In this document: piece after piece, positions 2,067-55,200 of the stretch
Position numbering within the stretch: position 1 is the stretch's first letter
Layout: every line of letters begins with the position of its first letter
Source: Cucumis sativus
Taxonomy: Eukaryota; Streptophyta; Magnoliopsida; Cucurbitales; Cucurbitaceae
Length of the DNA: 64,000 nucleotides
Direction: 5' to 3'
Assembly: GCF_000004075.3 (NCBI RefSeq)
Contig: NC_026658.2
Coordinates: forward strand, 9,672,001 to 9,736,000
The notes under the pieces: model-generated
What the model saw: only the letters and a program-made list of their open reading frames with translations
Told to the model about the DNA's origin: nothing
Database searches by the model: none
Position numbers and translations under genes: made by a program

Positions 2067-5000
2067 TTATTGACTTGGCGATACGTCTCTGCAGGTTGGA
2101 CAATACCACTTTCCTTTAAATCTTGTTTCTGGTGTCAGTCCAACGCAGGAATAATGAAACCATTCACCTCCTTGACACTGTCAATGGCATAAAAAGCAGC
2201 AGAAAGAAGAAGGCAAAGGGTTGTCATGAAATCCATAACATAGAATGCACTTTCAGTAGTTTAGACAACATTTGGTAACCATTTAGTTTTCGGTTTTTTG
2301 AAGATTGTGCTTTTTTTTTTTTCTTCCCATTTTCTAATCATGATTTTCATATAAGAATTATGTAGACATTTGATTTCTTAGAAAAACAAAACAAGTTTTT
2401 GAGAAGAACTACTTTTAGTTTTGAAATTTTGGGCTTTGGTTTGGAAAACTCCTAAAATGTAGGCAACAAAACATACAAGTAACAATGTTCATAGTCTTAA
2501 TTATCAAAAACAGAAAACAGAAAACAAAAAACCAAATGGTTAGCAAATCCTCAACTAAAAACTAAAACCATTGTCTAATATGGGCTCAGTTGATTTTTTC
2601 TTTTTTTTTTAAATGCTCATGCTGAATTCCAGTATGGACAAGTCCTAACCAACGGGTAAATTTTATATCAATGATAAGGTTAACTATAGAGTACATCCTT
2701 ATTTCTGTTTGTTTACTTTTATATATATATAAAAGATTTTCTAAAGTAACACACCACAAACTAAAGACGAACCTTTCTAACCCACAAGCAACGAATTCAA
2801 GAAATTTTAAGAGCATATGCACAATCATACTGAAAAGGACCAGCTACATTACATACAATTACACATTATACACACACAAAACTATGGGATCAAATACGTG
2901 AAGATATTTTCCGAGTTCAGAGGACACAAGACGGACAATATCCAAAAATTTGTAGAAACTGCACAGCCTCAAAACTTACTCTTACCATACAGGAAAACTT
3001 TGGTACTACGGAGACAACCATGAGGGGACTGGGGAGGGGGAAAGAACAACAGCATTGTAGATAAACAAACAACTAAAATAGCAGAATGTGAAGAATCCAC
3101 AACATAGAAAAGAGGAGGGACTTACATTCTCATTGTCACAAGCAATCATATCTCCAAATGACACCTACAAAAGAGAATAATTGAGGCACCGGTCAATAGG
3201 TTGGTAACAGGAAATCAAGTTAGAGAAATTACGAAAATTTAGACTGTTTTGTAATGCTTCTTAAAGAAAAAAAAGGATGATAAACTTGTCCACACTAAAT
3301 CTAATTATTCTTCCTCCCCACCGACTTCCCTTTTAATTTATAACCGATAGAATTAGTGATCTTGTCCGAAGGAAAGATCTAAACTAATTGTCTTTCCTTT
3401 TTTATCATTAGCTTGTTGTCTATTTAATTTTTTTCCATTGTATCTTTTATGAATAAAAGATAGTGATAAGAAAGTTAGATCTTGGTTTTCTCCCAGTACT
3501 CCGATTTCAATGTAACTCGGTGTCTATTTTCTTTTACCACTTTTAATATGGTATTAGAGCAGAAAAAATATGAAACCCTAGACACCAAACTTGGTGAAAC
3601 CCAAGCTGACCACAAGACAGCTGTCGCTAGCGCCCAAGCACCGCTGTCCAATTCCTCTGTCGTTCACCCGACTTACTTCCACCTGATTTCTCAACTCCAT
3701 GATAAATCAAGATTTGAAGTTGGTAAATCTTCGGCACAATCCAAACCAACTGACTTGCCGATGAATCTAAGAACCCGATAACTTCGCTCACTACTTTATC
3801 CTCAAATTATATTACAAGTTCTCTGGCAACATCGGCAGATGTCTTTCCAAGAGAGAAGCTGAATGCCATAACTACTTTTCCTAGTCTCAATCGGTCAAAA
3901 TGTTTCTTGCAAGACGTCACCAATTCGGTTTTCTGATAGGGGAGACTCTTTGGCCTCCACCTGGTGATGTCCAGGAACGTCTCTGGAGAAAGGAGGACTC
4001 TCTTATTCGGTCAATGTTGATTAATAGTATGGAACCACAAATTAGCAAGTCTTTGCTTTATGCAGCAACTGCAAAGGATCTATGGGTCACTACTCAGAAA
4101 CTCTATTCGAAAGCGTTAAAACCCCTCTCGTTTGTATACATTGAGGAAACACGTCCATGATTGCATGCAAGGAACTTTGGATGTAACATCCTACTTCAAT
4201 AAACTTTCACCACTTTGGCAAGAGATGAGCCTACGCAGAGAGACAGTATGGGATACTCCAAATGATGGCACGCAGTATGTTAGACTTGAAGAAGCTGATC
4301 GGATTTATGACTTTCTTGCAAATCTCAACCCTAAGTTTGACATTGTTTATGGTCATATACTTTGCGAGATACCCCTTTCCTCCTTAATTGAAGTGTGTTA
4401 TGAAGTCCGTCTTGAAGAAGATCGTACGAATGCCATGAGGTTCTTACAAGGTTCTTACAACTGCTACTAACTCCATTGCCTTCGATGTTAGATCCTCTAC
4501 CCATGATAGTGAGAAGAAGAACAGGAAACCGATCCTTATCTGTGAGCATTGTAAGAAACAGTGGTACCTACCTTAACTCACCATGACACCTAAAAATATC
4601 CACAGTACTTTAGAGTCCTATGAGTGGAAAAGAATAAGACTTGGGAGATCTGTACTCTCTCTAAGGGACATAAAACCATGGGATGTAAGTGAGTGTGCAC
4701 ACTTAAATACAAGACAAATGAAACTCTTGACAGACAGAAGGCTAGGTTAGTTGCAAAAGGGTTTGCTCAAACCTATGGTGTCAATTACTCTAAAACTTTT
4801 TCTCCCGTTGCAAAACTAAATAGAGTTCTGTTATCTGTTGTTGTGAATAAATATTGTCCCTTATACCAACTAGATGTTAAGAATGTGTTCTTATATGGAG
4901 ACTTGGAAGAGGAAGTCTATATGAGCCCCCTCCAGGGTTTGAAGCCCAATTTGATCATTGGATTTGCAAACTCTAGAAATTCTTGTATGAGCTAAAACAG

Positions 5001-8000
5001 TCACCGAGAGCATGGTTTCATAGTTTACTACCTTTGTCAAGTCCCAAGGATATAGTTAGTGACACTCAAATGACACTTTGTTTACGAAAGTCTAAATGTC
5101 GGAAAGATTGTCGTGTTGATTGTTTATGTTGATGACATTGTTTTATTTTGGGATGACACCGCTAAGATCATCCAACTGAAGAAGAAGATGGGTGATGAAG
5201 GCTCGGGGAATCTGAAGTATTTCCTTGGATGGAGTGACCGAAACAAGTGTTTTGGGATGTTATCCTACTGATACTCTTATTGAATTCAACTGTAAACTGG
5301 GAATTCAGGTGATAAAGTTCCTGTTGAGAAATAAAAATATTAGTGCCTTGTGGGAAAGTTGAGTTATTTGTCATGCACTAGACCATATATCTCCTATGTT
5401 GTGAGTGCCATTAGCCAATTTATGGAGGCTCCCTATGAAGAACACATGGAGGCAGTTAACAGAACTCCGAGGTACTTAAAGGCAACTCTTGGTAAAGGGT
5501 TGATGTTCAGGACGACTGACAGGAGAGCTATTGAGGCCTATGCTGATTCTAACTAGGCAGGGTCAGTTGTTGACAAAAAATCGACCTCTGACTATTGAAT
5601 CTTTGTCTGAGGCAATCTTGTAACCTAAAGGAGCAAGAAGCAAGGGGTTGTGACTAGAAGCAGTGTTGAAACTGAGTGCAGGGCTACGAGTTTAGGGATA
5701 CATGAGGAAATTTGGCTTTAGAAGGTTTTATCTGACCTTCATCAGAACATGAGATGCTGATGAAGTTATTTTGTAATAATAAGGCAGCTATTAGCATCAT
5801 CAACAATCCAGTTCAACATGATAGAACTAAATATGTTGAGATTGATCAACACTCTATTAAAGAAAAATTGAACAATGGTAGCATATACATTCCCTACATA
5901 CCCTTAGCTAAGTTGTTGATGTTCTTATCAAGGGGATTTTCATATAGAGCTTTGATTCATGTGTTAGCAAGTTGGGTCTCATTGATATCTACGTCTCAAC
6001 TTCAAGGAGAGTGTTAGAATTAGTGGGCTTGGCCCAAGGAAAGATTTACCCTAATTGACTTTCTTGTTTTATCATTAGCTTGTTGTCTTTTTAATTTTCC
6101 CCTTTGTATCTTTTGTGAATAAGAGATAATAATAAGAAAGTTAGATCATGATCTTTCTCTTGGTACTCGGGTTTCCACATAATTCGGTGTCTATTCTCTT
6201 TTACCGCTTTTAATAATAACCCCATGCTGCTAACAATTCATCAAGCCAACTCTATCTCATATACCTACTAACTATTCCATAATCATACCTAGCACTACCC
6301 ACCGTCAAAAGTATCAAATTGTTTAGACTGTAGAGCGAATTTGTTGCTCCATTGTACAAGCTCCATCAAACAAAAGCTGAAGGAGGAAGAAGATGATGAA
6401 TGAAGATGAAAAAAAAACTAATAGTCTTTCTGTTTTCACTTTTTATTATTGATCTTTGAAACTAGTTTTTTCCTTTTGCTTTGACCTTTTTGTTCACGTC
6501 TCTTCACTCCATGATTTCTTGCACCACTCAAGATAAACTAAAGCTAAAATTATCCCTCTCCAGAATTTCAATCTTGAGAGATAGGCTTAGCTTCCAACTT
6601 CCAAAGTGTAATATTTTCTGATACGGATAAACCAGCCTATTTCCTTTGCTTCTCACTGAATTTTCTACTGAAATGTTTTCTAACGTACAGCTATATTTCT
6701 TTATTCAATAAAGATTCAATTTCTATGCTATTAAATATATTAGACCAGAAATAAAATTTTCTTTTTACATAGCATAGTCTGCTTTTATCTATTAAACTGT
6801 CTCTCGTGTGGAGTGGTTCCATGAGATTGAAGCTTTCAGTTTAGTCACTTTTTCTTTCTCATCTCCAAGGTTGTGGTTAGATGAGAGGGTTGAGGATTAA
6901 AGCTTCTAACGAGGGCTACTTTTTTCTCACACATTACGTGAATAAGGTTTTCCCTTCCCTCTTCCTCTAATCATAACCACTTGCCCTGATTTCCCCCCTA
7001 AACAACTCTTATCATCTCACATACCCACTAAGTAACCATGAAAATGATACAACGAATATATCCTTTGAAAGACATGTATGAATCAAACCTGATGGCAAAT
7101 GCAATACGTTGGTTCATTTGGATCAATGGGCTGATCCACATCGAGTGAAGGTGCAAAGTCCTTCTTATGGCTTCCTGGAGGAGGCATGAGCTCAAAATCT
7201 CGATCACGCTCCCTATCCCAATCTCGGTCCCTGTAATCCGGCCTCTTAGATTGAGGTGTTATAAATACTGGTCGACGTCTTTCATTCTTCGAAACTAGTG
7301 GCAATGGTGGAAGAATTGCCGGTTCGTCTGGTGAAATTTTTCCCTCTGAAAAGTAGTAAAAGGTTAAATTATCTATACAGACAAACTGCATGGAAGGAAA
7401 AGCCGAAAAGGTAAGTAATACATATCACTTGTTTGTTTGGTTAAACATAAAAAATGACTTCGAGGTTTATTGATAATTTGCTAACCATCAACTCTTCAGA
7501 TAACAAAGAAATTAACCTTCAAACATTACATAGTAAAATAACTTGCATTTCCCAGAAATAGCCAGGCTTCTAAAGTCTCTGTACCTTGTTTCAGATCTTC
7601 TGCAAAGTTGTTTAGATCCTCATCAAGTCGTTTAATATGGCTATCTATCTGGACAAGTAAGAGCACATGAAGACCTATAAGATAAGTCTAGAAAATTTAT
7701 TCTAAAATACAATGGCATGTAGCTACTTAATGAATAAATTCTTCAGTACAACATTTCAAAGAGCAAACAGCTCTCTGAAATTGTAAGAAATTGATATCAA
7801 TCCCATTTTAAACGAAATCTCCTCTGAAGTATTGCAACCCCCTAGACTCGTTACACAATAGAAAAATAACAATAATCCAAATCAAAATCCATATATTCTA
7901 GCCAGACAATCATGCAATTCAAGATCGCTCATTGTAAAAACAGATGAAAGAAACAATGAGAAACTAATAGAGGAGATAGAAACAAACAGCAATTTGAACC

Positions 8001-37290: not shown

Positions 37291-38128
37291 TGTCACGTGG
37301 TTATTTTAATCACAAAACCAACGTGCGGCACAAAGGTGTTGGGGTTGCACCAATGTAAGCCTAAGAGTAATTGGACTTGTTGGAACAAACTAAGGAAGAA
37401 GGAAATCCGTAGGTAAGAATGAGGCAAAGAGTTGTAGACAAGGTGTTTGATAAAATGCTTAAGAGAGCTTTGTTGATGAATTCCCAAGGATTCTGTGTTG
37501 TTTGTACAAATGGACCCCTTTGGGGTATTTATAGAAGTATACAACCTATTTACAAGCCCTAAACCGCCTTACAAGGTCGGCAAAAGCAATCTGGAACATT
37601 CCCGAGCGCTCATGACACTGTCCAGAAGCTTCTGGAGGCGTCTGGGGCCGTCTGGCGCGCGCGCGTCTGCGTGCGTCTGGCACGCGCGCGCCTTCGCGCG
37701 TGTTCGCGAGCCTTCCCGGCCGCTCGCGATTCTTCTGGAACCTTCGAGAGGTTCCCGGATGCTTCTCCGCGCGCTCCGTGCGCTCCGTGTCCGCTTCCCG
37801 CGCGCGCTAGTGTAGCGCGCACGTCCGACTGGCCTTGCGCGCGTGTCCATGCCGCGCGCGCCCATCTGCCGCGCGCGCCCATCTGCCGTGCGCGCCCATC
37901 TGCCGTGCGCGTCCGCTTGTCTGCCTGCCGCCCTTGCACGCGCGCGCCCATGTCATGACAGGGCCGCGCGCCCCAGTCTACTGTACATTGGCGTGTCATA
38001 GGCTTGGCGTGAACCTGTTCCTCTTCCTTGGGTCTTTGGACTGCTTGGGACTTGGTTGGCTCCTCTTGGGCAATGCTAAGGAGCCTTAATTTGCGAAAAA
38101 TTTGTTGGGTCATTTTTGGGGCGTGACA
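37291..38128 (-). mobile_element. Solo LTR (838 bp) with an exceptionally GC-rich U3
   Basis: Ends are TGTCACG at 37291 and CGTGACA at 38128, a 7-bp terminal inverted repeat of TG..CA type, flanked by TACG on both sides (37287-37290 and 38129-38132). The minus strand begins TGTCACGCCCC, as many plant LTRs do. Read on that strand, a TATA box CTATAAATACC lies near 37535, about 590 bp in, giving a long U3 and short R-U5. The U3 core at 37610-37960 is packed with GCGCGC runs and includes a 17-bp tandem repeat (37851-37918). No gag-pol is next to it. The long frames on both strands across it are composition artefacts. Confidence 0.75.
37851..37918 (+). repeat. 17-bp tandem repeat, 4 units, GC-rich
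   Basis: Units at 37851, 37868, 37885 and 37902 follow GCCGCGCGCGCCCATCT; the third has a T in place of a C and the fourth has diverged at its end. It lies inside the U3 of the solo LTR. Confidence 0.85.
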
Positions 38129-38132
38129 TACG

Positions 38133-39430
38133 TCTACCTATGCATGTGCATTAGAGAACTATGTAAAGGTGATTTAATGAAGGTGGTTGAGATGGTATAA
38201 GCGTGAACTAACTTGTATCAAAGAAGAGGTGAAAGAATGTCTAATACTACTTGACGATTAAGCTACATGAAAGCCTTGATGCTATATAACTTGATTAACT
38301 AGTTTATGATTAAAGTGAGCTCCTCTTAGAGTTTTTAAACGCCACACTTGGTGACCTTTCGGAATTCAAATGACTAAGTCTAGCTAAACAAGGTATATCT
38401 AAAACTGTTAACTTATAAGACTTATAGAACTTCACGTTTAAGGGCAACAGCCTTATCCACACTTGTTGATCTTCTTTTGGGATACAAATGGTGGAAATTA
38501 TCTCGCCAAGGTAGAGTTTGTCTCCAAACTCTTCCTTGCACGCGTTAGTCATATCCTTGCTACTTGTCCTCTCAGGTAGTTTGTGATATACATTGGTCAA
38601 GAAATGAAAATAACTCAACTAACACGATAAGAATTATAAGCAAAGTTTCTTATCAAGAACATATCACAAACCTAAATTGCAAATAACACAAGGACAGATA
38701 AACAATAAAGACATGGATGGATTGAAAAGGTATAAGTATACATTATATTAAAGAATGTAAACCTTCGGTCACTGTACAATATGAACATACAAAATAAAGA
38801 AATACAAAAATGAAAAGACATTACAAGTTAGGGGGAGATGGGAGATGTGATCCTCTTCACTAAGACTACAAACTTTCACGTTACAATCTGACCTGAGAAG
38901 ATGAAAAGAAACTTTATAGACGGTGGAAAGGCTACTCCTTCCCATAAAATCTCGAGGATTCTACCCACCTCTTTAGGTGGGCAGGTGATCCACTAAGAGC
39001 TCCCTTAAGCGACTCATTCAAGTCTTTATGGCCCCATACAAGCATGCTTTTTAGTAAGGATAGAGTTTCCTTTTTATAGGCAAATTTAGGCGGAAAATCT
39101 AATCTTCTGAACATGTAAGGGCAGAACGCTGCCTTTGTCGTCAAGTCACATCAACTTTGTCTCCATCTACCACTTTTGTCTTTTAGTGAATCCCTTCTTG
39201 CTTAGCCTTCGCGCGAGTTCTTTTATGATTCACCAACTTCTTCTTTTGTTAATAATTTTGCATTTAGACACTAAAAACGAGGTAAAACAAGCATAATGCT
39301 TATGTAAGTGTATTTCTAAATATTTGTGCATTTACAATATAAGCTACATGTTTTGATACACATATCATGTATTTTGGTCCCATTATTCTACCTAAAAGTC
39401 CATAATAACTTGTATTTCTACAAGTTATCA
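38133..39430 (-). repeat. LTR-like block on the minus strand (left edge undefined)
   Basis: The right edge at 39430, read on the minus strand, is TGATAACTTGTAGAAATACA, followed by AGTTATTATGG. TAACTTGTAGAAATACAAGTTA is an inverted repeat often seen at the start of plant Ty3-type LTRs. A TATA box CTATAAAAAGG on the same strand lies near 39080. Downstream of it is R-U5-like, less AT-rich DNA to about 38880. No second LTR, target duplication or open polyprotein frame was found, so it is a solo or truncated LTR. Confidence 0.5.
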
Positions 39431-40310
39431 ACCACTCACAAATAAGTTAGTTTCTTTTGCCTACTCCTTAGCCCTAAACCTTCTTGCACTACTTGTCGAA
39501 TTAAAGCTTTTGAAATTCTCTGGAAATCGTAGGATTTCTCTTAATTCTTTCTTAGATGATCATAAAGTAAAAGCAGCTTCAAAATGGTCGAAGTTGATCT
39601 TCTATTTGTAAGCCTTTTCAGTGGCATTTTCATACAGAAATGATGACTTCAGTTCGATGGTGAGAGTCAACCATTGCCAAAATGCCTTCGCCAAAAGTAT
39701 TTCGGAATTAGTATTACTTTCAAATTCATTCAAAGTTAAAAATGCAAAAATTGAACTCCATTCTTACAAACATTTTCTCAAAGTATAGGTCTTACCATTT
39801 TTACCCGGTAAGCTGAAGCATAACAGAAAAATTAAATATGAACATTTAACATCTGAACTAATAGGAACTAAAATGCAGATTGTCAAAGTTCCACCTTGTC
39901 ATTACATAGAATAATATCCCACAATAGTTCCAAGCATCTGCGGAACACTAAATAAAAGAAGGGAAGGAATAAGTTAATATAAGAAGGGAACGTGAATAGC
40001 TGGGATAAATGAGACAAAAATTATCGTGATTAATTTCAAATTAAAAAATAAAGTTAGAAGGTAAATTACAATAAATAAAAGTTAATTTCAATAAATATAA
40101 GAAAGCGCCAAAAAGTTCATAATAGTTTCATATTTTAGGTTTACCGAACTATTTTCACTTTTTTTTTTCTTCTTTACAATCTATTCATCACCTCTTCATA
40201 TTATTAATTTTGTTATATTATTTCTTCTATATTATGGCTATTTATGTAAGTATTTACCAATTTCTTCATTTTCTCTTTCAAAATTTCTTTATTCTTCTTC
40301 CTTATTTCTT
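39431..40310. other. Intergenic stretch
   Basis: No gene recognised. The composition shifts from mixed to AT-rich after about 40000. Confidence 0.4.
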
Positions 40311-40319
40311 TTTTTTTTT

Positions 40320-40530
40320 TTTTGTACAAGACCTAAATGATATTGGTATAGGATCAACGATCATGTACCAATATTTAAACGGTCAATAATTTTCTATCCG
40401 AGATAGACCACTATCACTAATAGATCATTTTGATTTGGTATAAAATTGTTTAGACTTGTTATGAAATCATTTAGATTAGGTAGAAGAGTATAAGATTGTT
40501 TAGGTTTGATAGAAGAGTATAAGATGGCTG
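40320..40530. repeat. Member of the dispersed GATCATTTAGATT-type repeat family
   Basis: Contains GATCATGTACCAATATTTAAACGG, TCATTTAGATTAGG, and TTGTTTAGGTTTGATAGAAGAGTATAAGA together with a near copy ending in TTAGGTAGAAGAGTATAAGA. The words match those at 14560-14880 and 57950-58390, including the C/T-rich DNA on its left. It lies about 350 bp upstream of the RTL2 start. Confidence 0.5.
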
Positions 40531-40883
40531 GTGAGAGATGGTATTGTGTAGGTGTGTGACTAATTAATCACTAACTTTTGTTGTATGTGTAAAAGAAAAA
40601 GCACATAAATAAACTATAAAAGAAAAAGATATATGGTATAGATTAATAAAAGATTTAAAAATGGTAGGAAAGAAAGGGACGGGATGGGCTTCAACGGGGT
40701 TCCCAAATATGGTCTACACTTTCCTTTTCTCCCAATTTCCCTCTACGTAAACCCTAGAAAAACCCTTTTTCTTTCCCTTCACTCCTCCATTCTTCTCACT
40801 CTCACCTTCCTCAACCATTCCTAAATCCATCCATCTCCTCTCATTATTGCTTCCACACCTTGTTTGATTTTCTACTTTCTTCT

Positions 40884-42787
40884 ATGGAATCCTCCGTCAT
40901 TGCCCTTGAGCGCATTCTTTCCTATAACTTTAACAACAAGAGTCTCTTAGAAGAAGCCCTCACTCACCCCTCTTACTCTGCCTCTGCCTCCTATGAGCGT
41001 CTTGAGTTTGTCGGCGATTCAGCTATTGGCCTTGCTATTACTAATTACTTTTTTCTCGCTTCTCCTCACCTCCATCAAGGCCATCTCTCTTTACTTAGAG
41101 CTGCTAATGTTAGCACTGAGAAGCTTGCTCGTGTTGCAGTCACCCATGGATTGTATAACTATGTTAGGCGCGATTCACCTGCTATGGATGTTAAGGTCTT
41201 CAAATTAACCTTCACTTCTCCTTTGTTCCTAAAAATCTTCTTTTTTTTTTCTTTTTTTTTTTGCCCTGTTTTAACTTCATGTCTGTATTTTTTTTATTGT
41301 TCAGGTTAAAGAGTTTGTTGATTCTGTTGCCCTAGAAGGTAGCTCCGTTCATTATGGTAGGTTGATGAAGGCTCCTAAAGTTCTTGCTGACATTGTGGAA
41401 TCAGTGGCTGGTGCTGTCTATGTAGATGTTAATTTTGATCTTCAAAAACTATGGGTGGTAAGTTCTTAGTTACATTTGAAGTATGACTATTGTTACTTTA
41501 TTAGCTGGGCACCAATTAGTTTTCTTTTCGTCTTCAATCTTTTGTAGATTATTAGGGGTTTGCTAGAGCCTATCTATACTCTTGAAGAGTTACAAGTAGA
41601 GCCCCAACCTGTAACTGTACTCTTTCAAGTTTGCCAAAGAAATGGAAAGCAGGTTGATATTAAGCATTGGAAAAACGGATCCAATAGCATCGCGAGTGTC
41701 TATGTTGATGGTAAATTTGTTGCTTCCGGCTCTTCAATGCAAAAAGAAATCGCAAGGCTCAATGCTGCCAGAGAAGCTCTCATCAAATTGTCGGATTCTA
41801 TGGATACCAGAATTAAAACATTTGTAACTATTGATGGTATCGATGAATCGTTTGAGATTGAAGGGGCAAAGCAGAAGCTACATGATGTTTGTTCCAAGAG
41901 AAAGTGGCAGAAACCAAATTACAGGTATATATTTTTATTGTATGATATTTGAGATGTTGCATACTTGCATTGTTTTGGACTCTGAATTAGGAGGTAGTTT
42001 TTATGTTGTAGTTGTCTCTTTTTCATTTAAAAGCATGCACCTTCACTTATATATTTGCTTTCTAACCAAGTAGGATGCTGAATTTTTCAGTAATTTATAA
42101 TGAAATGCATTTTTTTTCTCTAAAGTCTGCCTGCTTCAATTGTAACCTTGTATCTTCATCGAACTATTTTCATTCTTTCTGTTCATTGTAAAAGTTGCAG
42201 CATTTTTTAAATTTAAGATTCATTTCACTGATCAATGCTCACTTATTTTAGAGAAATTAGTTTCAGCAACGACAGTGACCTTCTCAATTAATTTTAATGT
42301 TATTATATCTGTACACTTATTTGTTTAAAACTTATTTTCTTTTGAATCTCCACCCTCTGTGCATACCTTATCAACTAAAGGCCTGTTTCCCTTCCTTTTC
42401 CATCTTACACATTGATTTTTTATGTGAATAGAACTCTTCGATATCTGTGGGGATTATCTCGAGTCGTTTTGTGCGGGTCATAAACAAAAGATAAAACTCA
42501 GAGAGATCATTTACATACCATGAAGTTATTTGACTATCTTTTTCCCTTCTCCTTGTCCTCCTTTTTCAAACGTGTTCTAGTGCTAAATACTTTATGAATT
42601 TCTTACTTGCAGTGTGGAGAAAGATCTAGGACCTTCACATGAAAGGATATTTGTTTGCTCGGTTAAAATTGCCACTTGTTATGGTACGTTCTATATTGTG
42701 GGAGATGAGAAATCAAGAGTAAAAGATGCAGAGAACTCGGCAGCCTCATTGATGATTCGTGCTTTACAGGAAAGAAAGCATCTCTAA
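40884..42787 (+). CDS. RTL2: RNase III-like protein RTL2 (RNase III domain plus two dsRNA-binding domains), 4 exons, 338 aa
   Basis: Double-stranded RNA endonuclease of the plant RNase THREE-LIKE group; Arabidopsis RTL2 trims structured and siRNA-precursor RNAs and rRNA 3' ETS. Exons 40884-41195, 41305-41457, 41548-41924, 42613-42787; GT-AG, total 1017 nt. The RNase III domain covers about 5-150 with signature ERLEFVGDSAIG (38-49); the four metal-binding acids are present: E41, D45, D133 and E136 (LADIVESVAGAVYVD). The first dsRBD is at about 174-235, ending in KEIARLNAAREAL. The second is at about 255-335, split by the last intron and ending in KDAENSAASLMIRAL. The frame opens at 40860, but the first ATG is 40884. 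It is the intact member of a tandem pair; the partner at 46303 has a frameshift. Slightly shorter than Arabidopsis RTL2 (386 aa). Confidence 0.92.
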
Positions 42788-43740
42788 TGCATATATATTT
42801 ATTCAATTTGGGTTGAATCTAACATAAGTACAGTGAGTTTATGCTTCCTGATGCCCTCATTTTCCTTAGATATCATGGAGGTAGGTATGTTGTAAATCAT
42901 GATTCTACTTGCCTTTCCTAGTGAAGTTATGGTATCTAAATGATAATTTTTTGCTATGTAAAGTTCAAACCAACCGGTTTAGGTTGTCAAGATCTGTAAA
43001 TATTATCTATCTGTTTTTATATTTAGTGCATGTTTGTGTGATTCTACCTAATAGAATAACACTTAAAATACCCCAACAATGGCTAAACAAAGACAGTACT
43101 ATGATGATCCTTAATTTATATATAAGCCAAAAAATGATTACAACAGTCACAATATAACAATAATAAAGAAAACATATCAGAACACATACCAGCCTTCTAA
43201 TATCAAGCTTGGAGACCCTTTTCGGCTACAGCAACCTTTACACCACAAAGAAGAAAAGAAATAACCTAGCTACCCTATCCCTAACTATATATATTTATAG
43301 CCCCTCCTATCTTTCATCCCAGTTGGATCGTGCATGTGTGAATAATTGGGGACCTTACAATTTGTTGGAAACAATTTTAGAATTTAGGGGCATTGTGGAT
43401 GGTTGTAATTTATAGTCTCAAATTGAAAAGTTTACTATAGTTTTATATCTTGTATGCATTGGTCTTCCATGGTTTATCCCAATGGTTTATCCAACTTTAG
43501 TGTTAACAGTTTGGAACTTTTGATTTTTAACCAACTTTAAGTATTTTGAAACCAATCATATATGTAAAATGGTAGACCTCTTCTTTGTCTTTTAACACTA
43601 TCATAGAAACAAGTATATTTCAATTATTTTCCCTTGCAAACTAGGGGACATATTATTGAATTTACAGAGCTGTTTCATGATAGACTTTTTATTTTAGTTT
43701 GAACTACAAAATGGTTCATGCACGATAATATTATGTATAA
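42788..43740. other. Stretch between RTL2 copy 1 and the GT61 pseudogene
   Basis: The first ~250 bp (with GGAGGTAGGTATGTTGTAAA) match the region after the second RTL2 copy (from about 48677). From about 43070 to 43420 there is DNA absent from the second unit, with a minus-strand TATA-like GGGGCTATAAATATATATAG near 43300, so an LTR-like insertion is likely. Its ends are not defined. Confidence 0.5.
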
Positions 43741-43744
43741 TTTT

Positions 43745-44800
43745 GTGTTTCAAATCACCAACTTTTTGTTTTTTTCTTCAATCGATTTCTTTACTTAAAT
43801 TATAGTATTTTGAAATCCAGTCAAATTTATCTTCAAATTTTGTCCATCTATATAAATAGTTCACTATCAAAGTAACCTTAGGCAAATATGGACTCAGAGT
43901 CTCTAATAATCGTATCATTTGTTTTCATATTTTTACCACAAAATAACTCTCCTTTGTCTCAATCTTACACACCAAATATTTAAGGTTTATTTCAGCCGCT
44001 AGCTTTGCAAAGAAAAAGGTAGAAGGCCAATCAAGCTCCAACGACACCAAGAACACCTTGTTCAATACCTAGCCCCATATGCCCCAACAATTGCACTACA
44101 CAGTTAACAATTGACAAAATCTTGATTCAAGTTTGACATTCTTTGTGGTGTTGTCCTCATCACTTGGAATCCAATCTCATCATCTCAACCATTTTCTCTT
44201 CGTTCATAAACCTCATTATGTCTGATGAGATATCAACATTACCATTGGTTTTTTCCACACTTACTTCACTTACATTTTTCATTTTCAAATTATAGGTTTG
44301 TCTTAGGAAACTCAGAAAATCCGACATCGAATAACCTCCGGAAATACCATTGTTATTTAATGATAAATTGTTGTGGAATTTAAGTCCTACAACAACACCT
44401 CTATTGAAGTAATAAACAACTCCATCTTCAATTGAATTTATGGCATTGTAACAAGATAAAGCTAGAGTAGTATTTTCAAACCCATTACTTTTGGTGGTTG
44501 GTAATGAGAAACCAAACCCGAGTTCCAAAAGGGTAAGAAGTGATGAACAAAGGATGGTGGTCTCGTCGAACTCGTGGAATACGTTGCTGGTGAAGCAGCA
44601 GGTGGAGAAGATGAGGATAGAAACATAATGGACGAATTGACAAAAGGGGTAAAAGGGCTTTAATTTGTTTGGTTGGAAGATTAATTGGAGTGAAGTAAGA
44701 TCTCTCGAGCTAATTTTGTCCTCTTGTCTTGCAAATGGATGAATTAAGATTGGCGAAAATTTGTTTGTTGAGAATCATTGTTGGTTTAGATGTAAAAATT
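43745..44800 (-). pseudogene. GT61 glycosyltransferase pseudogene (copy in duplicated unit 1)
   Basis: Read on the minus strand it follows the intact GT61 at 49034-50217 nearly end to end, with frameshifts and stops. The longest surviving piece (44528-44160) carries GYSMSDFLSFLRQTYNLK and FMNEEKMVEMM. Upstream, the words equivalent to ILIHPYARQEDKI and the phenylalanine-rich middle are present but shifted. The HGAGLTN region is degenerate and shortened, and the C-terminal SIFAQGYFASRAIYI part is only faintly recognisable. It cannot make a working enzyme. It is tail-to-tail with RTL2 copy 1, as in the second unit. Confidence 0.85.
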
Positions 44801-45049
44801 GAAGTTGACGTTCTAAAATAGTACACTTACATTTCTTTCTTTCTTTTAGTATAATAAAGAGTAGGAAGAGTTAAACCTACAACTTCATAAAAACGATTAT
44901 ATGTAAATTATCGTTGAACTATTTTTTAATTTGAAAATAGACTTAATCATTTTGATAAATTTGAGATGTATTATTGAATTTACACCACCTTTTTTTTGTC
45001 TGTAGTAATTGTTTTATGTAACAGGTTAGGATTCATGGAAAGAAAAAAG

Positions 45050-45665
45050 TAACTTTGCATATTCTATATGAGTTTTGTGCTTCAATTTACTGTCTCCCTC
45101 TTTTCTTCAAACAACTATTTTACTTAAATCATAGTATCTTGAAAGTCAGTCAAAGAAAAATGAAGAAGGGCAATCAAGCTCGAACGACGCCACATGTACA
45201 TACATCGTGCCGTTCATCAAAATCACCTTGTTTGTTAGCCGGTTCTCATGTGCTCCAATGATTACACAACACAAGTTAACAACCAATGAAAACTTGTCCA
45301 AATTCAACATCCTTTGAGGCATTGTTGCGTCACTTCAAACCCAATTTAATTTTCTTGATCATCTCGATCATTTCTCCTTCATCCATAGTCTTCTCGATAC
45401 CAACAATACCGTTGGTTTTTTTTTCCCACTCATTTCACTCACATTTTTCGCTTTTAAACTATAGGTTTATCTTAAAGAACTCCAAAAATCTGACACTGAA
45501 TATCCTCCCACAACATTAGTATTGTTCAACCACAAAATGTCGTGGAATTTAAGTTCTATTATAGTTTCATTGAAGCAATGAACTACTCCATTTTCAGTTG
45601 GATTTATGACCTTGTAACGAGATAAACTGGAGATGAGATTTCAGTTGTATTTCAATCAAACCCAA
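45050..45665 (-). pseudogene. Second GT61 pseudogene fragment
   Basis: A further degraded minus-strand copy of the middle part of the GT61 gene. Equivalents of the SVVNLCSVIIGAHGAGLTN, MMKEVGFEV and SDFRSFLRQTYNL regions can be followed against 49400-49760, with several indels and stops. No RTL2 copy accompanies it, so it is either the remainder of a third unit or an extra copy of GT61 alone. Confidence 0.8.
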
Positions 45666-45892
45666 GTTATTCCATTAAAGTGAGTAGGGTTATTCCATTT
45701 CTTAAGAAGCAAGCTAAACTTTAAAGGGGAATGTGCAATGTAAACCGTAGCTTTTTCTCTAACCTTTTTAGATCCCTTTCTTCTATGAGAAGACAAAGAC
45801 TCTTACTCAATAACAAATATGTTACCACCCACACCATACATGTATACACGCATACACATATAAATATATACATGCAAAACGTAAATAAATAA

Positions 45893-45975
45893 AAAAAATG
45901 AGCTTAGCTCAACTGACACCTAAGCTCTTATGGACAAGAGGTTCTGAGTTCAAATTCCCAGCCTAGTATTTATTA
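45893..45975 (+). repeat. tRNA-derived SINE-like element
   Basis: After an A-rich run, AGCTTAGCTCAACTGAC (45901-45917) resembles a pol III A box and GAGTTCAAATTCC (45947-45959) a B box, spaced about 35 bp apart as in tRNA-derived promoters. No cloverleaf with paired acceptor ends is formed, so it is not a tRNA gene. Similar motif pairs occur near 55400 and, inverted, near 58600. Confidence 0.45.
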
Positions 45976-46302
45976 CAATACTTTTGCAAACAAAAATATG
46001 TCAAGATTTAGAATTTCAGAAGTTTATAACAGTAACAATAATAAGTTTATAACATCATCAAATGTATTGATGTGGACCTCTTTTTTTTTTTGTTAGGATG
46101 CATTTTACCCAAATATACACAGAAATTCACCCCTTCCCTTCCACTCACTCAGCTCCCACCTGCGCCTCCTTCTCTATTCTTCAAACGATTCACAGTCCAA
46201 CCACCGTCGCCGGCGTTTAAGGTCTGACCTAGAGAATCCTCCATGATAGCATTCTTTTTTCTTTTCCTTTCTTTTCTTTATTTTTTTTTATTGAGGAACT
46301 CC

Positions 46303-48676
46303 ATGACACCAATTGAGCGCATACTATCTTATAAGTTTAAGAACAAGAAGCTGTTGGAAGAAGCCCTCACCCACTCCTCCTACCTCAACTCTCCCTCCTA
46401 TGACCGCCTCGAGTTCATCGGAGATTCAGCTATTGGCCTCGCTATTTCCACTTACTTTTTTCCCCTTTATCCGGACCTCAATCAAGGCCAACTCACTTTA
46501 CTTAGTGCTGCTAACGTTAGCACCGAGAAGCTTGCTCGTGTTGCAGTCCTCCATAGATTGTATAGTTATGTTAGACGCAACGCAGACGATCTTGATGATA
46601 ATGTTAGAGAGTTTGCCGATGCCGTCGCTCTAGAAGACAACTCAATTCCCTATGGTGGTTGGTGAAGGCTCCTAAAGTTCTTGCTGACATTGTGGAATCT
46701 GTGGCTGGTGCTATCTATGTAGATGTTGAGTTTGATCTTCAAAAACTATGGGCGGTGAGTTCTTAGTTACATTTGAAGTATGTTTAATATTATTACTTTT
46801 ACTAGCTACACACCAATTAGTTCTCTTTTTTTCTTTTTTTTTCAATATTTTGTAGATTATTAAGGATTTTTTAAAGCCTATCTATACTCCTGAAGACTTA
46901 AAGGCAGATCCCCAACCTGTAACTCTGCTCTTTGAAGATTGCCAGAAAAAAGGGAAGCAGGTTCATATTGAGAATCAGGAAAAGGGTTCCACGTACGTCG
47001 CGAAAGTCTATGTTGACTGTAGGCCTGTTGCTTCTGGCTTTTCGAAGCAAAAACCAATCGCAAGGCTTAATGCTGCCCGAGAAGCTCTTATCATACTGTC
47101 GGATTCTACGGATACCAAAATTAAAAGGGTTGTAACTATTGATGGTATTGATGGTTCGTTTGAAATTGAAGGGGCAAAGCAGAAGCTACATGATTTTTGT
47201 TGCAGGAAAAAGTGGCAGAGTCCAAGTTACAGGTAAATACTATATGATATTTGAGACGTTGCATACTTGCATTGTTTGGACTCTGAATTAGGAGGTAGTT
47301 TAGATGTTGTAGTTGTGGATTTTTCATTTACAAGTATGAACACTCTAACTTATATATCTGCTTTCTAACCAAGTGGGAAATTGAGTTCTTCAATAATTAT
47401 GATGAAATGCACCTTTTTAGGCTTGCCTGCTTCAATTGTAGTCTTGTAATCTTATATCTTCACCAAACTACTTTCGTTCTTTCTGTTCATGGACATGTTA
47501 TTTTTTTCTCTCAAATTTTAAGATTCATTTTAGTTGTCAATACTCACCTGTTCTCTTTTTTGTTTTTTACAAGGCATGATGTTAGTTTCAGCAATGACAT
47601 TGAACTATTCAGCTAAATTTGATGTTAATATATTTGTTAAATGGTAAAAAGAGAACACTAGGTTTACGTGAAAAACCTTAAAACAGGAAGAAAGAACCAC
47701 GATAGAGAGTAACTTTTTATTATTTTCACACACATTGAAAGTTACAAGGGAAGATAACTTTAAAAGTTTTAGCAAGCATTAATACAAAAAAAGGAAATAA
47801 ACTTAGGGTAAACTACAATATTAAAATACTCTCAACGCAATAAACTATCAACAAAGCCTCTTGTTTCCAACAATATCTATACACTGATTTGTTAAAACTT
47901 GTGTTCTTTTGAATCTCCATCCTCTGTGCAATATACTTTTACCTTGTATGAGTAAAACTACACAAACTTGGTTTGCTTCCTTTTACTTTTCCTTCTTAGA
48001 TGTTGATTTTTTATGTGAATGAACTCTTGGATACCTGTTTGCATTATATCGAGTATTGTTTTAAAAGGTCTTCCTGGACACACGCCTAGGCTCAAGGATC
48101 AGGTCTGGCACATTTCTTTTCCAAGGTGACGCTCACAAAATAAGACGTACACCTTTTGTGAAGCCTCAAGGCTCCTTGGAAAGTAGTAATAATTAGAGTG
48201 TTTTCTTCTTTTTTAACTAAAAAATATATATTTAGTAAGGCTAAATGCAAATTTTATTTTGTTTGGAAGGTTTTTTTCTTTCATATTTTTGGTTCAACTC
48301 TGCTCTCTCCTGAATGTAATACTTTCATGTATATATTGTATGCTTAAAAAAATCCTCTTTTTTTTTCTTGAGTTTAAGCTCTAGAAGAATATTGCGCTTT
48401 TATTGCAAGTCATTTTTTGGGTCAGAAACAAAAGTTCAACGCAGATCATCTCCTTTTTCCAACGTGTTCAACCACTAAACACCTCATTGATTTCTTACTT
48501 GCAGTAAAGAAGTTCTTGGACACCCACATGGAAGAAGATTTGTTTGCTGTGTTAAAATTTCCACTTTTAATGATACGCACTCTATAATCGGAGATGAGAA
48601 GTCAAGAGTAAAAGAGGCAGAGAACTCTGCAGCCTCTTTGATGATTCGTGATTTACAGAAAAGAAAGTATCTCTAA
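46303..48676 (+). pseudogene. RTL2-like duplicate with one-base frameshift and one intron missing
   Basis: Paralogue of the RTL2 gene at 40884. Exons 46303-46754, 46856-47232 and 48505-48676 correspond to exons 1+2, 3 and 4 of the intact copy; the first intron is absent with no codons lost. The signature DRLEFIGDSAIG is kept. After EDNSIPYGG a single missing base relative to the intact copy (GGTAGGTTGATGAAG becomes GGTGGTTGGTGAAG) brings in a TGA at 46663-46665, before the second pair of catalytic acids. Beyond it the frame (KVLADIVESVAGAIYVD, then both dsRBDs, stop at 48676) is open again. So this is a very young pseudogene, an assembly error, or a gene making only a truncated protein. An alternative ATG at 46243 adds a hydrophobic 20-residue extension. 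Confidence 0.85.
47635..47872 (-). mobile_element. Solo LTR (238 bp) in the last intron of the RTL2 duplicate
   Basis: The plus strand starts TGTTAAATGG and ends TTTCCAACA; flanks are ATATT (47630-47634) and ATATC (47873-47877), a 5-bp duplication with one change. On the minus strand it starts TGTTGGAAACAAGAGGC, a common Copia LTR opening. The paralogous intron in RTL2 copy 1 (near 42300-42325) runs straight through the site with a single ATATC and no insertion, so the boundaries and its later age are supported by an empty site. Confidence 0.8.
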
Positions 48677-49033
48677 TTTCTATATTATTCAATTGGGCAG
48701 AATCTAGCATAACTGTATAGTAAGTTTATGCTTTCTGATGCCCTCATTTTCCTTGAATATCTTGGAGGTGGGTATGTTGTAAACCATGATTCTACTTGCA
48801 TTTCTGAGTACAAGTTATTGTATCAAAATAAGTATTGGTTGCAATGTAAAATTCAAGGCAACCAGTTTAGGCTGTCATGATGTGTAAATGTAATCTATAT
48901 TGTTTGAAAATAGACAAATTTTGGGATGTTATGATCGAATTGTACAATTGTTCCATAGTAGAATTGTACAATGTAAAATTGTTGATGCACAAAAGGTGAC
49001 TTTACTTATTCTAGACGAGTTTCGTGTTTCAGT

Positions 49034-50477
49034 TCACCAACTTCCTCTTTTTTCTTCGATCAATTTCTTTACTTGAATCATAGTATCCCGAAACCTAGTC
49101 AAATTTATCTTCAAATTCTGTTCATCTATATAAATAGCTCTGCTAGCAAAGTAACCTTGGGCAAATATGGACTCAGGGTCTCTAATAACCGGATGATTTT
49201 CTCCATATTTATCCCATAAAGAACTCTCCTTTGCCTCAATCTTATACTCTAAATATTGAAGCTCCATCTCAGCCGCTGGCTTCCCAAAGAAATACGTAGA
49301 AGGCCAATCAAGCCCGAATGGCACCACTTGCACCACTACCGCGCCGTTTGCCAAGAACACCTCATTCGTTAGCCCGGCCCCATGTGCCCCAATGATCACA
49401 CTACACAAGTTAACCACCGACGAAAACTTGTCCAAATTCGACATTCTTTGTGGCGTTGTTGTCATCACTTCAAACCCAACTTCCTTCATCATCTCAACCA
49501 TTTCTCCTTCGTTCATAAACCTCCTTGAGGTTTGACGAGATATCAACATCACCATTGGTTTTTTCCCGCTCAATTCACTCACATTATTCACTTTTAAGTT
49601 ATAGGTTTGTCTCAGGAAACTCCGAAAATCCGACATGGAATAACCCCCGGGAATATCAGTGTTGTTCAAGGATAAAATGTTGTGAAATTTCAATCCTATG
49701 ACACCTCCATTGAAACAATGGACAGATCCATCTTCGGCTAGATTTATGACATTGAAACGAGATAAACCAGAGAGAATTCGGTTGTATTTTTGAACCCACC
49801 AAGTTTTGTGATCGGTAATGAGAAACCGAACCCGAGTTTGAAAGTGGTAAGAAGTGATGAACAAAGGGATGATGGTCTCGTCGAACTCGTGGAAGAGATT
49901 GCCGGTGAAGCCACCGGTGGAGAAGATGAGGACAGGAACATTATGGATGAATTGACAAAGAGGTAAAAGGGTTTTGTTTGGTTGGAATATGATTTTGAGT
50001 GGAGTAACATCTCTTAAGGTGATTTTGTCCTCCTGTCTTGCATATGGATGAATTAAGATTGGAGAAAAGTTATTTTGTTGAGAATCATTGTTGGTTGAGA
50101 TGTAGAATTCAAGGTTGGTATTGTTGATTCTTGTTGGGTTGTTTGTCAAACATACTTTGGAATGTAAATCTGTATGACAAGCAAATCCTGTTCTTTCTAG
50201 TTGGGTATGATCCTCACCTGTATGTAAACCACCGAATAATATTTAACTTCACTCAAACTGTTTTCTGTTTTTGAAAATTAGTATAAACCTTAACACGTTG
50301 CAACTTTGATAGTTTTTTATAATCTTTGTCCCAAACTCCCTGTTGATGCAATTTTCAATAGCAATAGTTCGTAAATTAACTCTTTTTTGTATAGAAACAA
50401 TTAAAATGATTTTTCATACTTCAAACAAAAACCATACCTCTCACAAGTCTTCCCATTAGAAGTTCATGAGGCTCCAT
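49034..50477 (-). CDS. Glycosyltransferase family 61 protein, at least 2 exons (N terminus uncertain), 407 aa as modelled
   Basis: Type II Golgi glycosyltransferase family that adds pentose or GlcNAc branches to xylan or glycoproteins; the donor specificity cannot be told here. Modelled exons 50477-50438 and 50217-49034 (GT-AG, phase 1), 1224 nt. The short exon gives MEPHELLMGRLVRG and joins to EDHTQLERTGFACHTD..VCLTNNP, the usual GT61 stem-to-catalytic transition. The catalytic part has FHEFDETIIPLF, GYSMSDFRSFLRQTYNL, MVMLISRQTSRRFMN, the family hallmark IIGAHGAGLTNEVFL, and a C-terminal WPSTYFFG...YLEYKIEA. No membrane anchor is encoded in the modelled part, so a first exon is probably missing; an ATG at 50897 (minus) opens about 40 hydrophobic-rich codons but its splice could not be matched. 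The frame previously opening at 50149 begins with TTG and is internal. Confidence 0.85.
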
Positions 50478-50899
50478 CTCTTCTATGCTCTCATCAACAA
50501 TCTCTTGATTTGTTATTGTTGCTCAAACCATCTCTCCAACTTCCCATAGTCTGCCATCTCACTGTATTTACAAACCAAAACATTAAACATAAAATAATCC
50601 TAAATCACACCAATATAATCACAACCTAAACTACAAAACCTAACTTCTCTCCATTTGAATGCTTGAAAATTTAACACGTTAGTAGATAGTTCAAACATTA
50701 TACCATGATCAACTAGATCACCAAACGAACAATAATAATTAATATAAACGGAAGCATAAAAAGGGAGGAAATTAAACATAAAGGACGTACGTACATGAAT
50801 GAAATGGTAGAAGATCAAATGGGGCAAAGAGTGCAGAAAAAAGCAAAGCAAAGTAAATGTTTACTTGATGGATGGAACAAAAGAATGCATTCTCCATAA

Positions 50900-52190
50900 A
50901 AAATTACTTGACTGCGTTTCATACTACAAATTTTGTGCAGTTCATCTAAGTGTTAAATCACAAGTTGTCACATGATAATTATTTGCAAAATTAAACAAAC
51001 ATTGGAGCATCTTAATTTTAGTGATATGGTAGGACAAAATAAAAATCAATAAAAGATTTTGATTTGTTGATTGTATAATCAAGACTAGTAGTTAATAAGT
51101 TGGGTGAGCTAAAATTAACCTTACAAGTTTAGTGGTCCATTTTTATAAATAAACTTTTCTTTTTTTACTTGATAGAAAAAATAAGTATTTCTTTTAAATG
51201 TCATTTTTATTTAAACTCTTTTGATTAAAATTGTTTAAAATAAATTTAAAAAGGCTGATAAAAGTTGTTTTAAGTTGGTGAGAAATGACTTATTTTCAAA
51301 ATCTAACTCCTAAAATATTAAACCTAATGACATACTTACAAACTAAAATTGTAATTCTTCAAACAACATTCAAACGTTCTTTAGTTTTTGTGTGGCATGG
51401 TTTGAAAAGTACATTAAAATCTTAAATACGTAAGAATAAAACTATGTTTCAAGTAGGGTTATGAAAATCAAATTTAAATATTTTCATGATATGAAAAACA
51501 CTCACATATGTTCTAATAGATTAAGATGTATGTGAAGATAATTTTGCTACAAACTCGATCTATGTGAAGTGATATAAAAAAATTTGCTCAACTTTTGACT
51601 TTATTCTATATCTTTTCGTGAATGAAATTGAGATTAAAGTAACTTTATTATGTTTTGCATGTTACTTATTCTCCAAAATCTAAAATAGTGATGTTAGTAG
51701 AAACAATATTTGAAGGCAAACCAATACCAACCTAACATAGCTTTACCAAATATGAATTATTAACTAATAGATTACTATATACTGTTGATCTAAAAAGATT
51801 AAAAAAAAGACAAAAAAGAAAAAAGAAATAAGAAAAAAATGAAAAGTTCACTGCTTTTTCAATTTTACAAAAGTAAGCTTTTTTTTTTTTTTCTCTTTCA
51901 TAGATTTTCTTTTTCTTTGGTCACAATCTTAGTCAACTTTTTCGACTTCATATATTGACCGTTGAAGAAGAAAATTGTATCGGATGACAAAAACATTTAA
52001 AAAATATTTAATTACATATTTTAAAAAATATAATAAATAATTAATGATATTAGAGAAAGTATATTTGAACTTAACAAAAAAAACTATTGCATTTTAACAT
52101 TACTAAATGTTGTTACCATTTTCTTTTACAAAGGCTGGAATTCTAGAAGATTCGGAGAAAATGATACGCGGTTCCTCCTCATTGGTTATT
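50900..52190. other. AT-rich intergenic stretch between GT61 and the lectin gene
   Basis: No gene recognised. Homopolymer A and T runs dominate 51750-52110. The lectin promoter and its short leader occupy the right end. Confidence 0.45.
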
Positions 52191-52261
52191 CTGTCATTTA
52201 TATTCACCGGCAGTCGGTGACGTGCCTCTCCTCACCTGAAGAACTCCCAACAGATCGGAAA

Positions 52262-55200
52262 ATGGCCTTCCCCTTTCACCACCACCACCGCCGTGACGAC
52301 GATGAAGACGGCGAACCTCCTTATCCTCCACCGGGACACAGGCCGCCACACTCCGATCCACCGCCTCCACTGGTTCCCCACATCCACCACCACACTCACT
52401 ACGGCCAGACTCCTCCGCCGCCTCCACCGTCTTACGTTGACTACCAGTCCAATTTCTCTCCGGAACCGCCCGTTCCCAACTACGGATACTCCTCTGGACC
52501 CCCGCCTCCGGTCGTGCACCACCACTCTCACAATCCACACTCTCCCACTGTTATTCACCAACACTCTCATCAGTCCGATTCTCCCTTCTCCAACAGACCA
52601 ACAGTCAAGGTCTACGCCAAAGCAAACCCTAATTTCTCTCTTGCAATCCGCGACGGCAAAGTCGTACTCGTTCCTTCCGATCCAGACGATCCCGCTCAAG
52701 TATGATCGATTCGTTCCTCGATCGCTTTCAGTTTTCGCCTTAATTTGTAATTAGAGTATTTGATTTTTTTAATTTCTTCCTTACAATTCGATAATTTAAT
52801 GGTGTTGGTGAATCGTGAACGTTTCAGCACTGGTTCAAAGATGAGAAATACAGTACAAGGATTAAGGATGAGGAAGGATGTCCCTGCTTTGCTCTGGTTA
52901 ATAAGGCCACCGGTCAGGCGATGAAACATTCCATCGGAGCTTCTCATCCGGTAAGATTTTCCCCTGATTTTATTGCCACTTTTTGTTGGAGTTCATCTGG
53001 AATTGGAGTTTCATTCATATGATAGAATGAATGATTTTGATGAATTGAAAATGCCTTTTAGAATTTGACCAACAACCCATTTAATCCTTATTAGTTTGTG
53101 ATGTTGGAGAATTAAAAATGTAATATACTATTTTCAATTTTTTTTAAAAAAAATTCTCATACGAATAAAACATTAGTTTAAAATTTATATGACAAATCAA
53201 TCATACTATCAATTTATAAAAAGAAAAGTTAAGAAAAAAAAAATGATAAGTGTTTCAGACACGCTTTTCTAAAGATGCATAGTGATTCTAAAACCGGATC
53301 GGATTCTACAACTCATCACGTTTATTTATTAATTAATTTAGGGTTCAATTTGTTTTTCTTTTTTTATTCTAAGAAAACAATTAGTATTCTATTAACGTTC
53401 TTGATTAAAATGACTTTAGTTGGTGGAAATGGAAGATATAAATGTGTAGGTGGGTCATGTATGAGTTTGTCCGTTGTAACTATTTCTTCTCTTTAAAAAG
53501 TTCTGATTAAAATGAAACATTTTTCATTTTGTTATTATTTCTTGTTGCTATTTGTGGGGTTCGGTGGGATTTTTAGGACTTCTTTTACTGTACGTAATCA
53601 TTTGAAAAGAAAATGATATTATTTTTTATAAATTGTGTTTAACACACATGCTTTATGAACTTCCTTGGTCTCTCATTTTCATTTAAAAATTTGTAACTCT
53701 AATCCTTACCTTGTAAAATCTCATCATATTAATGCCAATTTTTATAATTCGACAGGTTACTATATTTTGTACAATTGAGAGTAAACCGAGTCATGATAAA
53801 GTTTTATAGACTAAATTGTTGCTAAGTTGAAAGTATAGAGATTGAATTGTTTGGTTCAACAACTGAAAGTTACTTATATTTAGTCTTTTTTTATTTGAGT
53901 TTGAATGCTAGTTTTATAATCTATTATTTGATTTTGTTTTGGTTGGGTTATGATGTTCAAGTTGCCTGGATCTGGGCATTCTCTCTCACCAAGTTCTAGG
54001 GTTGCATCTTGTTATACGGTTCCTTAAATTCTGGTTCAAGAAAGGTCACAATGGGGAGTAATAGAACCTGAAGACGCAATCATGCCGAGTTTTGTCTTGG
54101 TTGATTATGATTGGTGTCCTTTTCGGTATTCATACTGTTTTTATTCTTTCATTTTTGGTTAAACATGTCCGATTGAAACAGAACTGTGGAACTTTGTTTG
54201 ATGTTGGTTTTGTCCTGGAGAAGGACATTAAATATTCACGTTGTGAAAATGATATATCAATTTCAAACTGACTGAGTTTAAAATTAAAACCGGCTGAGGT
54301 CAAAAATAAAAATGCAGGTTCAGTTGACACGTTACGAACCAAATGTTGTGGACGAGTCTGTACTGTGGACACAGAGCAAGGAATTTGGGGAAGGATACAG
54401 AGCCATAAGAATGGTGAATAACGTTCACTTGAATGTTGATGCCTTTCATGGAGACAGATATTCTGGTGGAATTCATGACGGCACCCATATTGTTCTGTGG
54501 AAATGGAAGGAAGGAGAAAACCAACTATGGAAGATCGTACCCTACTGTAAGTGCTTTCAATTTAATACTATGGTTAGACATCATTCTCTTCTGTTCATCT
54601 TGCTGTTACTGACTCTTGATTTCTGGATCTCATGCCAAATCAATGGGTTCTATTGCTCAGTTTTATATTTTTGAATTCTAAATTTTTGAATTCCCCCACC
54701 CTGATCCTTTAATACCCTGTTAAACAAAGATTTCATGTTGAAAAATGATAGATCAAAGGATTGGGGCAAGAGGTGAGGTTTTTTAGTTTAGAGAGTTGCT
54801 GACATAAATGAGCTATTTAGACGCAAGTCCAACGAGTAAGGTGTTAAGGAGTTGATAAGTTATGGAAGTGATGTTTTTTAGTCGTGGGATTCATGAACTC
54901 TTTGGACAGAGTAAGGTTTTGTTTTTGACCTATTTGTCTTTTCAAATAATTTTTAAAGCTACAACATCGAAAAATAAGATGAAAGAATATACATACATAC
55001 AAAAAAAAAAACCTCCATAAAAAGGGGAGCTCCCTTTCCAAGAAGGAGCTTCAACCATGCAACAAATATGTATTGGTAATTATTAAAGTCCATCGAAATT
55101 AAAGTCCAAAGAGAAACATGAAAACAAACGAGGGACTGAACATACAAAAGGTCCCTATCCACGCCCCTAAAGATTCTCTTATTTCATGCCTTCCCAATAC

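Follow-up and report, generated by a model that had tools for sequence, protein, structure and literature searches.

The 64,000-nucleotide stretch of the Cucumis sativus genome analysed here (the window, C4:9672001-9736000) carries a convergent gene pair, an RNase III-like gene (RTL2, forward strand) facing a GT61 glycosyltransferase gene (reverse strand), which is present twice in tandem with a different gene broken in each unit, and so raises the question of where, and between which copies, this pattern of loss arose. In the window the first unit has an open RTL2 (RTL2a, 338 residues) and a lost GT61 (GT61a, with 13 frameshifting indels and six stops), and the second has an open GT61 (GT61b, 407 codons) and an RTL2 (RTL2b) that is frameshifted, with a stop after 120 codons. 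A sequence-only reading of this DNA had described these states correctly and took them for reciprocal decay between the two units, neither of which could then be deleted without loss of a function. Searches of the whole genome assembly (226.6 Mb in 88 contigs) revealed what that reading had missed, a second copy of the entire block on chromosome C3, and, as judged from the assembled sequence, the reciprocal loss of RTL2 has to be placed between chromosomes, not between the units on C4. The single window gave the wrong scale, the reciprocity being inter-chromosomal.

The duplicated block is 10.9 kb long (39955-50853, forward strand) and its second copy lies inverted at C3:4126889-4137873. Over 11,012 aligned columns the two copies differ by 131 substitutions and 27 indel events, their flanks are unrelated on both sides, and no N occurs in the sequence read around them (100 kb of C3 and 104 kb of C4). 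Divergence is 0.96% (99/10,283) outside the left end and 5.4% (32/589) within it (39955-40559), an excess perhaps due to mutation driven by methylation or to conversion from repeat copies elsewhere. Near this end, upstream of RTL2a, lies a dispersed repeat (40110-40500) that recurs beyond the two blocks in long matches on C1-C7 and small contigs, at 72-79% identity among the 40 of 325 first-look candidates scored. Plant substitution rates are 6.5e-9 to 1.5e-8 per site per year, so that a divergence of 0.96% would place the block copy very roughly 0.3-0.75 million years ago, an estimate good to an order of magnitude only. A 67% tandem repeat spans the left block edge on C3, whereas C4 lacks the outer unit of this repeat, which gives a weak hint that C3 may have been the donor. 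No clear target-site duplication was seen at the block ends, and transposition of the block was rejected, the candidate being just a 5-bp TAAAT at 39949-39953 and 50854-50858 on C4, easily supplied by AT-rich DNA.

Comparison of the blocks reveals that the RTL2 frameshifts are swapped. RTL2b on C4 carries a 1-bp deletion at 46655-46660 (forward strand), giving the stop after 120 codons mentioned above, and is open on C3 (333 residues); RTL2a is open on C4 and has on C3 a 1-bp deletion in exon 1, with a stop after 113 codons. At each site the base is kept in the other three block copies, and both deletions would therefore date from after the block copy. The resulting set is one open RTL2a (C4), one open RTL2b (C3) and two open GT61b genes (C4 and C3). 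The claim that neither unit could be deleted without losing a function thus fails genome-wide for unit 2, given the second open GT61b on C3. For unit 1 it stands in so far as this unit holds the only open RTL2a found, but must be set against the open RTL2b on C3. Reciprocal decay likewise holds for the open and broken states themselves, but the two losses are unlike, GT61a being broken in both blocks and the RTL2b frameshift being confined to C4 and mirrored by the RTL2a frameshift on C3.

DNA searches of the genome, in which all first-look candidates were scored (5/5 each time for RTL2, 4/4 for GT61), found no close RTL2 DNA besides the two blocks and a fragment on C5, and no close GT61 DNA besides the two blocks. 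RTL2 exon 3 has five genome matches: a pair in the window, a pair on C3 with roughly the same spacing, and the C5 fragment. In protein searches (34/34 RNase III candidates, giving 29 matches, and 13/13 GT61 candidates) the closest RNase III gene beyond these is found on C7, with 50% identity over residues 4-106, followed by weaker matches on C1, C3 and C6; the next GT61 match is 36% identical to GT61b. The C5 fragment (C5:11006216-11006819, ∼600 bp) includes RTL2 introns 1 and 2, is 86.7% identical to unit 1 and sits in unrelated surroundings, so that it looks like a capture of genomic DNA. It is identical to RTL2a in 454 of 496 columns and to RTL2b in 414 of 496.

How did the tandem units themselves arise? 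A blastn comparison of the window with itself aligns 40906-44797 with 46313-50107, collinear and in direct orientation, in five matches at an offset of 5.3-5.9 kb and with 73-83% identity, introns included: 40906-41171/46313-46578 (82.7%), 41305-42312/46603-47637 (78.7%), 42305-42464/47873-48054 (73.4%), 42558-43010/48450-48898 (81.4%) and 43741-44797/49020-50107 (79.3%). The tail-to-tail pair with homology through its introns, as first read from the window, is thus borne out. The expectation of uninterrupted collinear identity holds for introns 2 and 3, the RTL2 3′ flank and GT61, with the intron-3 stretch scoring 189 between units against a shuffle mean of 22 and maximum of 33 (n = 300), but is broken by the absence of intron 1 from RTL2b, by repeats in RTL2b intron 3 and by an intergenic stretch found in unit 1 only. 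Three of these interruptions are, or contain, dispersed repeats. Two lie in RTL2b intron 3, one at 47638-47872 (78-84% identical to copies beyond the blocks, with 40 of 83 first-look candidates scored) and the other at 48055-48449 (65-90%, with many partial matches; 40 of 46 scored). The third is the unit-1-only stretch at 43011-43740, which has a dispersed repeat inside it at ∼43050-43330 (40 of 103 scored) and is otherwise unexplained; the 121 bp that unit 2 has in its place do not align to it, as high a score being reached in 78 of 300 shuffles.

The edges of the copied segment were assessed with 300 shuffles in blocks of two bases, one sequence of each pair being shuffled. No similarity between the units was detected upstream of the RTL2 start region (score 23 against a shuffle mean of 19, with 31/300 as high) or beyond 44797/50107 (score 21 against 22.6, with 233/300 as high). 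As similarity stops at either edge, the copied segment would have begun close to the start codon of RTL2 and ended within the second exon of GT61. When two genes converge, a tandem copy with these limits yields one GT61 that is missing its 5′ end, and this is what is seen in GT61a. The divergence of ∼21% between units would correspond very roughly to 8-19 million years at the rates given above, again as an order of magnitude only. One simple partial tandem duplication was rejected as the whole account: it fits the unit edges and fails on the 1.5-kb spacer between the units and the relic of a third GT61 copy (GT61c) that the spacer holds.

The three GT61 copies differ in their state. GT61b (49034-50477, reverse strand), with exons predicted at 50438-50477 and 49034-50217, has in both blocks an open frame whose 407 codons end in a stop, and like other GT61 glycosyltransferases it passes the Pfam cut-off for PF04577 (Glyco_transf_61; 43.8 bits against 27). 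Plant GT61 proteins usually have an N-terminal membrane anchor. The N terminus predicted for GT61b has none. A search for an anchor exon identified none, though splicing from the short hydrophobic open frames upstream, for example from 50796 and 50897, was not covered systematically. GT61b is also distant, at the 36% noted above, from its next match in this genome. GT61a (43741-44797, reverse strand) lacks exon 1 and the start of exon 2, and relative to GT61b has 13 frameshifting indels and six stops on C4, and 11 and six in the C3 copy; since the unit homology stops inside exon 2, it was probably truncated at birth. The internally deleted GT61c (45044-45652, reverse strand), found in the blastn self-comparison and overlooked by the sequence-only reading, is identical to GT61b in 451 of 623 common columns and to GT61a in 431, GT61a and GT61b sharing 513; like GT61a, it is broken in both blocks.

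The two RTL2 genes have kept a common architecture. RTL2a on C4 (40884-42787, forward strand) has exons at 40884-41195, 41305-41457, 41548-41924 and 42613-42787, and RTL2b (46303-48676, forward strand) has exons at 46303-46754, 46856-47232 and 48505-48676. Immediately upstream of the RTL2b start, at 46228-46302, a T-rich stretch is in frame, on C3 also, and an earlier ATG there could give RTL2b a hydrophobic N-terminal extension. At an E-value of 0.001 the 338-residue RTL2a (C4) and 333-residue RTL2b (C3) proteins match only RNase III and dsRNA-binding (double-stranded RNA-binding) families in Pfam, with one stretch of PF00636 (73.6 and 76 bits, respectively) and two of PF00035 in each, and neither a Dicer helicase nor a PAZ domain. 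Arabidopsis RTL2 has the same layout of one RNase III domain and two dsRNA-binding domains, and cuts dsRNA and the 3′ spacer of ribosomal RNA, according to PMC4687873. Having this layout, the cucumber proteins most likely cleave dsRNA too, the likeness being one of domain layout. In contrast to Arabidopsis, the gene here forms a diverged tandem pair that occurs on two chromosomes, each of which carries one broken member, and RTL2b has lost intron 1. This intron (41196-41304, forward strand, in RTL2a) is missing from RTL2b exactly at the exon junction, introns 2 and 3 being kept. The C5 fragment retains it, and an intron matching it in position and phase is predicted in the C7 paralog, so the loss is assigned to RTL2b, which on this comparison is a case of precise intron loss. 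A literature search turned up no paper on this locus among those looked into, PMC4687873 mentioning just a cucumber RTL1, in a figure legend.

Both RTL2 genes appear to have been maintained for much of the time since the tandem copy. RTL2a (C4) and RTL2b (C3) share 231 of 333 aligned residues, with a synonymous divergence (dS) of 0.35, a nonsynonymous divergence (dN) of 0.18 and a dN/dS of 0.51 (bootstrap 0.36-0.70); against the partial C7 paralog, 7 residue changes are unique to RTL2a and 11 to RTL2b. GT61a serves as an internal control, for it lies in the same units at a like divergence (79-83%), yet has accumulated the lesions listed above. In 2000 neutral simulations, with substitutions only and indels ignored, the RTL2b frame stayed free of stops in 0.75% of runs at both 0.175 and 0.15 substitutions per site, in 3.2% at 0.10 and in 17% at 0.05. 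The open frame alongside a decayed GT61a, the dN/dS and the rarity of a stop-free frame under neutrality together suggest that RTL2b was most likely under protein constraint until the block copy. The changes since then have a different character. Between blocks, RTL2a shows 6 replacement changes and 1 silent, and RTL2b 8 and 1; polarised with the paralog, the open copies have 5 replacement and 1 silent and the broken copies 6 and 1, with 3 more RTL2b replacements that could not be assigned. Whether a copy is open or broken, its changes since the block copy look neutral.

We consider it probable that these observations reflect a history in three steps: a tandem copy, long constraint on both RTL2 genes, and a block copy followed by the loss of one RTL2 on each chromosome. 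A partial tandem copy would have produced a GT61a without first exon and promoter, which decayed. RTL2a and RTL2b would then both have remained long under protein constraint, as the lack of stops and frameshifts and the dN/dS of 0.51 suggest, with RTL2b precisely losing intron 1 meanwhile. Copying of the block between chromosomes would have yielded two RTL2a and two RTL2b genes, a redundancy that may have relaxed constraint, so that ordinary degeneration broke RTL2b on C4 and RTL2a on C3. Several points weigh against this history. All frameshift calls rest on one assembly of one genome, in which both frameshifts are single bases in near-identical blocks. At the alignment column where C3 RTL2a has its deletion, the C5 fragment lacks a base as well. 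A search for tighter constraint on the open than on the broken RTL2 copies after the block copy found none and, with post-copy changes that look neutral, a present-day function of the open copies is unsupported. The 1.5-kb spacer and the GT61c relic are not accounted for by one simple tandem duplication. Lastly, of the six ways in which random hits can break two of four copies, two give the swapped pattern, which is therefore no evidence of selection.

These points bear differently on the possible alternatives. If one or both of the 1-bp frameshifts were leftover assembly errors there would be no reciprocal loss; 12 of the 27 indel events between blocks are single-base, two of these being the frameshifts, short reads map to either of two blocks that are 99% alike, and polishing can leave single-base deletions behind in contigs built from long reads. 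However, both frameshifts lie outside homopolymer runs, the 1224 bases of the GT61b coding sequence have no indel between blocks, and the match of the C3 RTL2a deletion in the C5 fragment would be unexpected of random error, and we regard this explanation as unlikely. That same match allows a further scenario, in which the RTL2a frameshift is older than the block copy, its deletion survives in C3 RTL2a and in the C5 fragment, and C4 regained the frame by a 1-bp insertion; the sole unbroken lineage would then be RTL2b on C3 and the reciprocity accidental. The C4-specific coding changes in RTL2a (4 replacement, 0 silent) are in keeping with it, but the rest of the C4 RTL2a frame is free of stops and frameshifts, and an exact +1 insertion would be needed on the short C4 branch. 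The fragment, moreover, is dead DNA that has further private indels and in which an independent deletion is easy, and its neighbouring letters differ from those on C3, for which reasons we read the two deletions as independent and hold the scenario to be improbable.

A role for selection in partitioning the genes, with RTL2a favoured on one chromosome and RTL2b on the other, for example through dosage or separate regulation, would fit the finding of exactly one open copy per RTL2 paralog. Given that chance yields the swapped pattern so readily and that open and broken copies alike look neutral since the block copy, we give it very little credence, and just as little to the idea that the C3 block is a false duplication, whether a haplotype or a misplaced contig. 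High identity within one assembly would be expected of the latter; different flanks on both sides, the inverted orientation, the lack of N in the stretches read, the 131 substitutions and private indels of 13-30 bp would not. Reciprocal decay between the two units on C4, with each indispensable for one gene, describes the window taken alone, where RTL2a and GT61b are open and RTL2b and GT61a are not. It is highly improbable in view of the open GT61b and open RTL2b on C3 and of a GT61a that is intact in neither block and whose missing 5′ end was probably never copied, and it was dropped as a full account once the C3 block was found.

Elsewhere in the window, an island of 61% GC (guanine plus cytosine) at 37480-38137 has overlapping open frames on both strands, the rest of the window being 33% GC, and a 200-bp direct repeat occurs at 3348-3548 and 6015-6215 with 83.7% identity. 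To the right of the block, 52037-54671 encodes a proline-rich N terminus followed by a lectin-like stretch, which we take to be, perhaps, a gene of the Euonymus-lectin type.

The event reconstructed in our three-step history is of a known kind. Incompatibilities between duplicated genes are on record for HPA and TIM22 in Arabidopsis and for DGS1/DGS2 (RPC4) in rice, in all of which a duplicate sits on a second chromosome and it is not always the same copy that is broken (PMC8042742; PMC5555463). In those cases the broken copies are spread over different genotypes or species and hybrids suffer, whereas in cucumber a single genome holds both broken RTL2 copies, each as a member of a tandem pair. 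Nevertheless, this one assembly does contain complementary breakage at unlinked loci, of RTL2a on C3 and of RTL2b on C4. If the three-step history is right, an inter-chromosomal duplication of a gene pair has been caught mid-resolution, next to an older dead gene, GT61a, against which neutral decay can be gauged. At ∼1% divergence the resolution would be so recent that blocks and frameshifts may conceivably still be polymorphic in the species, though we would not expect it. RNase III-like genes act on dsRNA, and loss or segregation of their copies could therefore matter in crosses. Were the polymorphism to persist, crosses of lines with different block sets would segregate plants without RTL2a, RTL2b or both, and would then present a duplicate-gene incompatibility acting on dsRNA processing.

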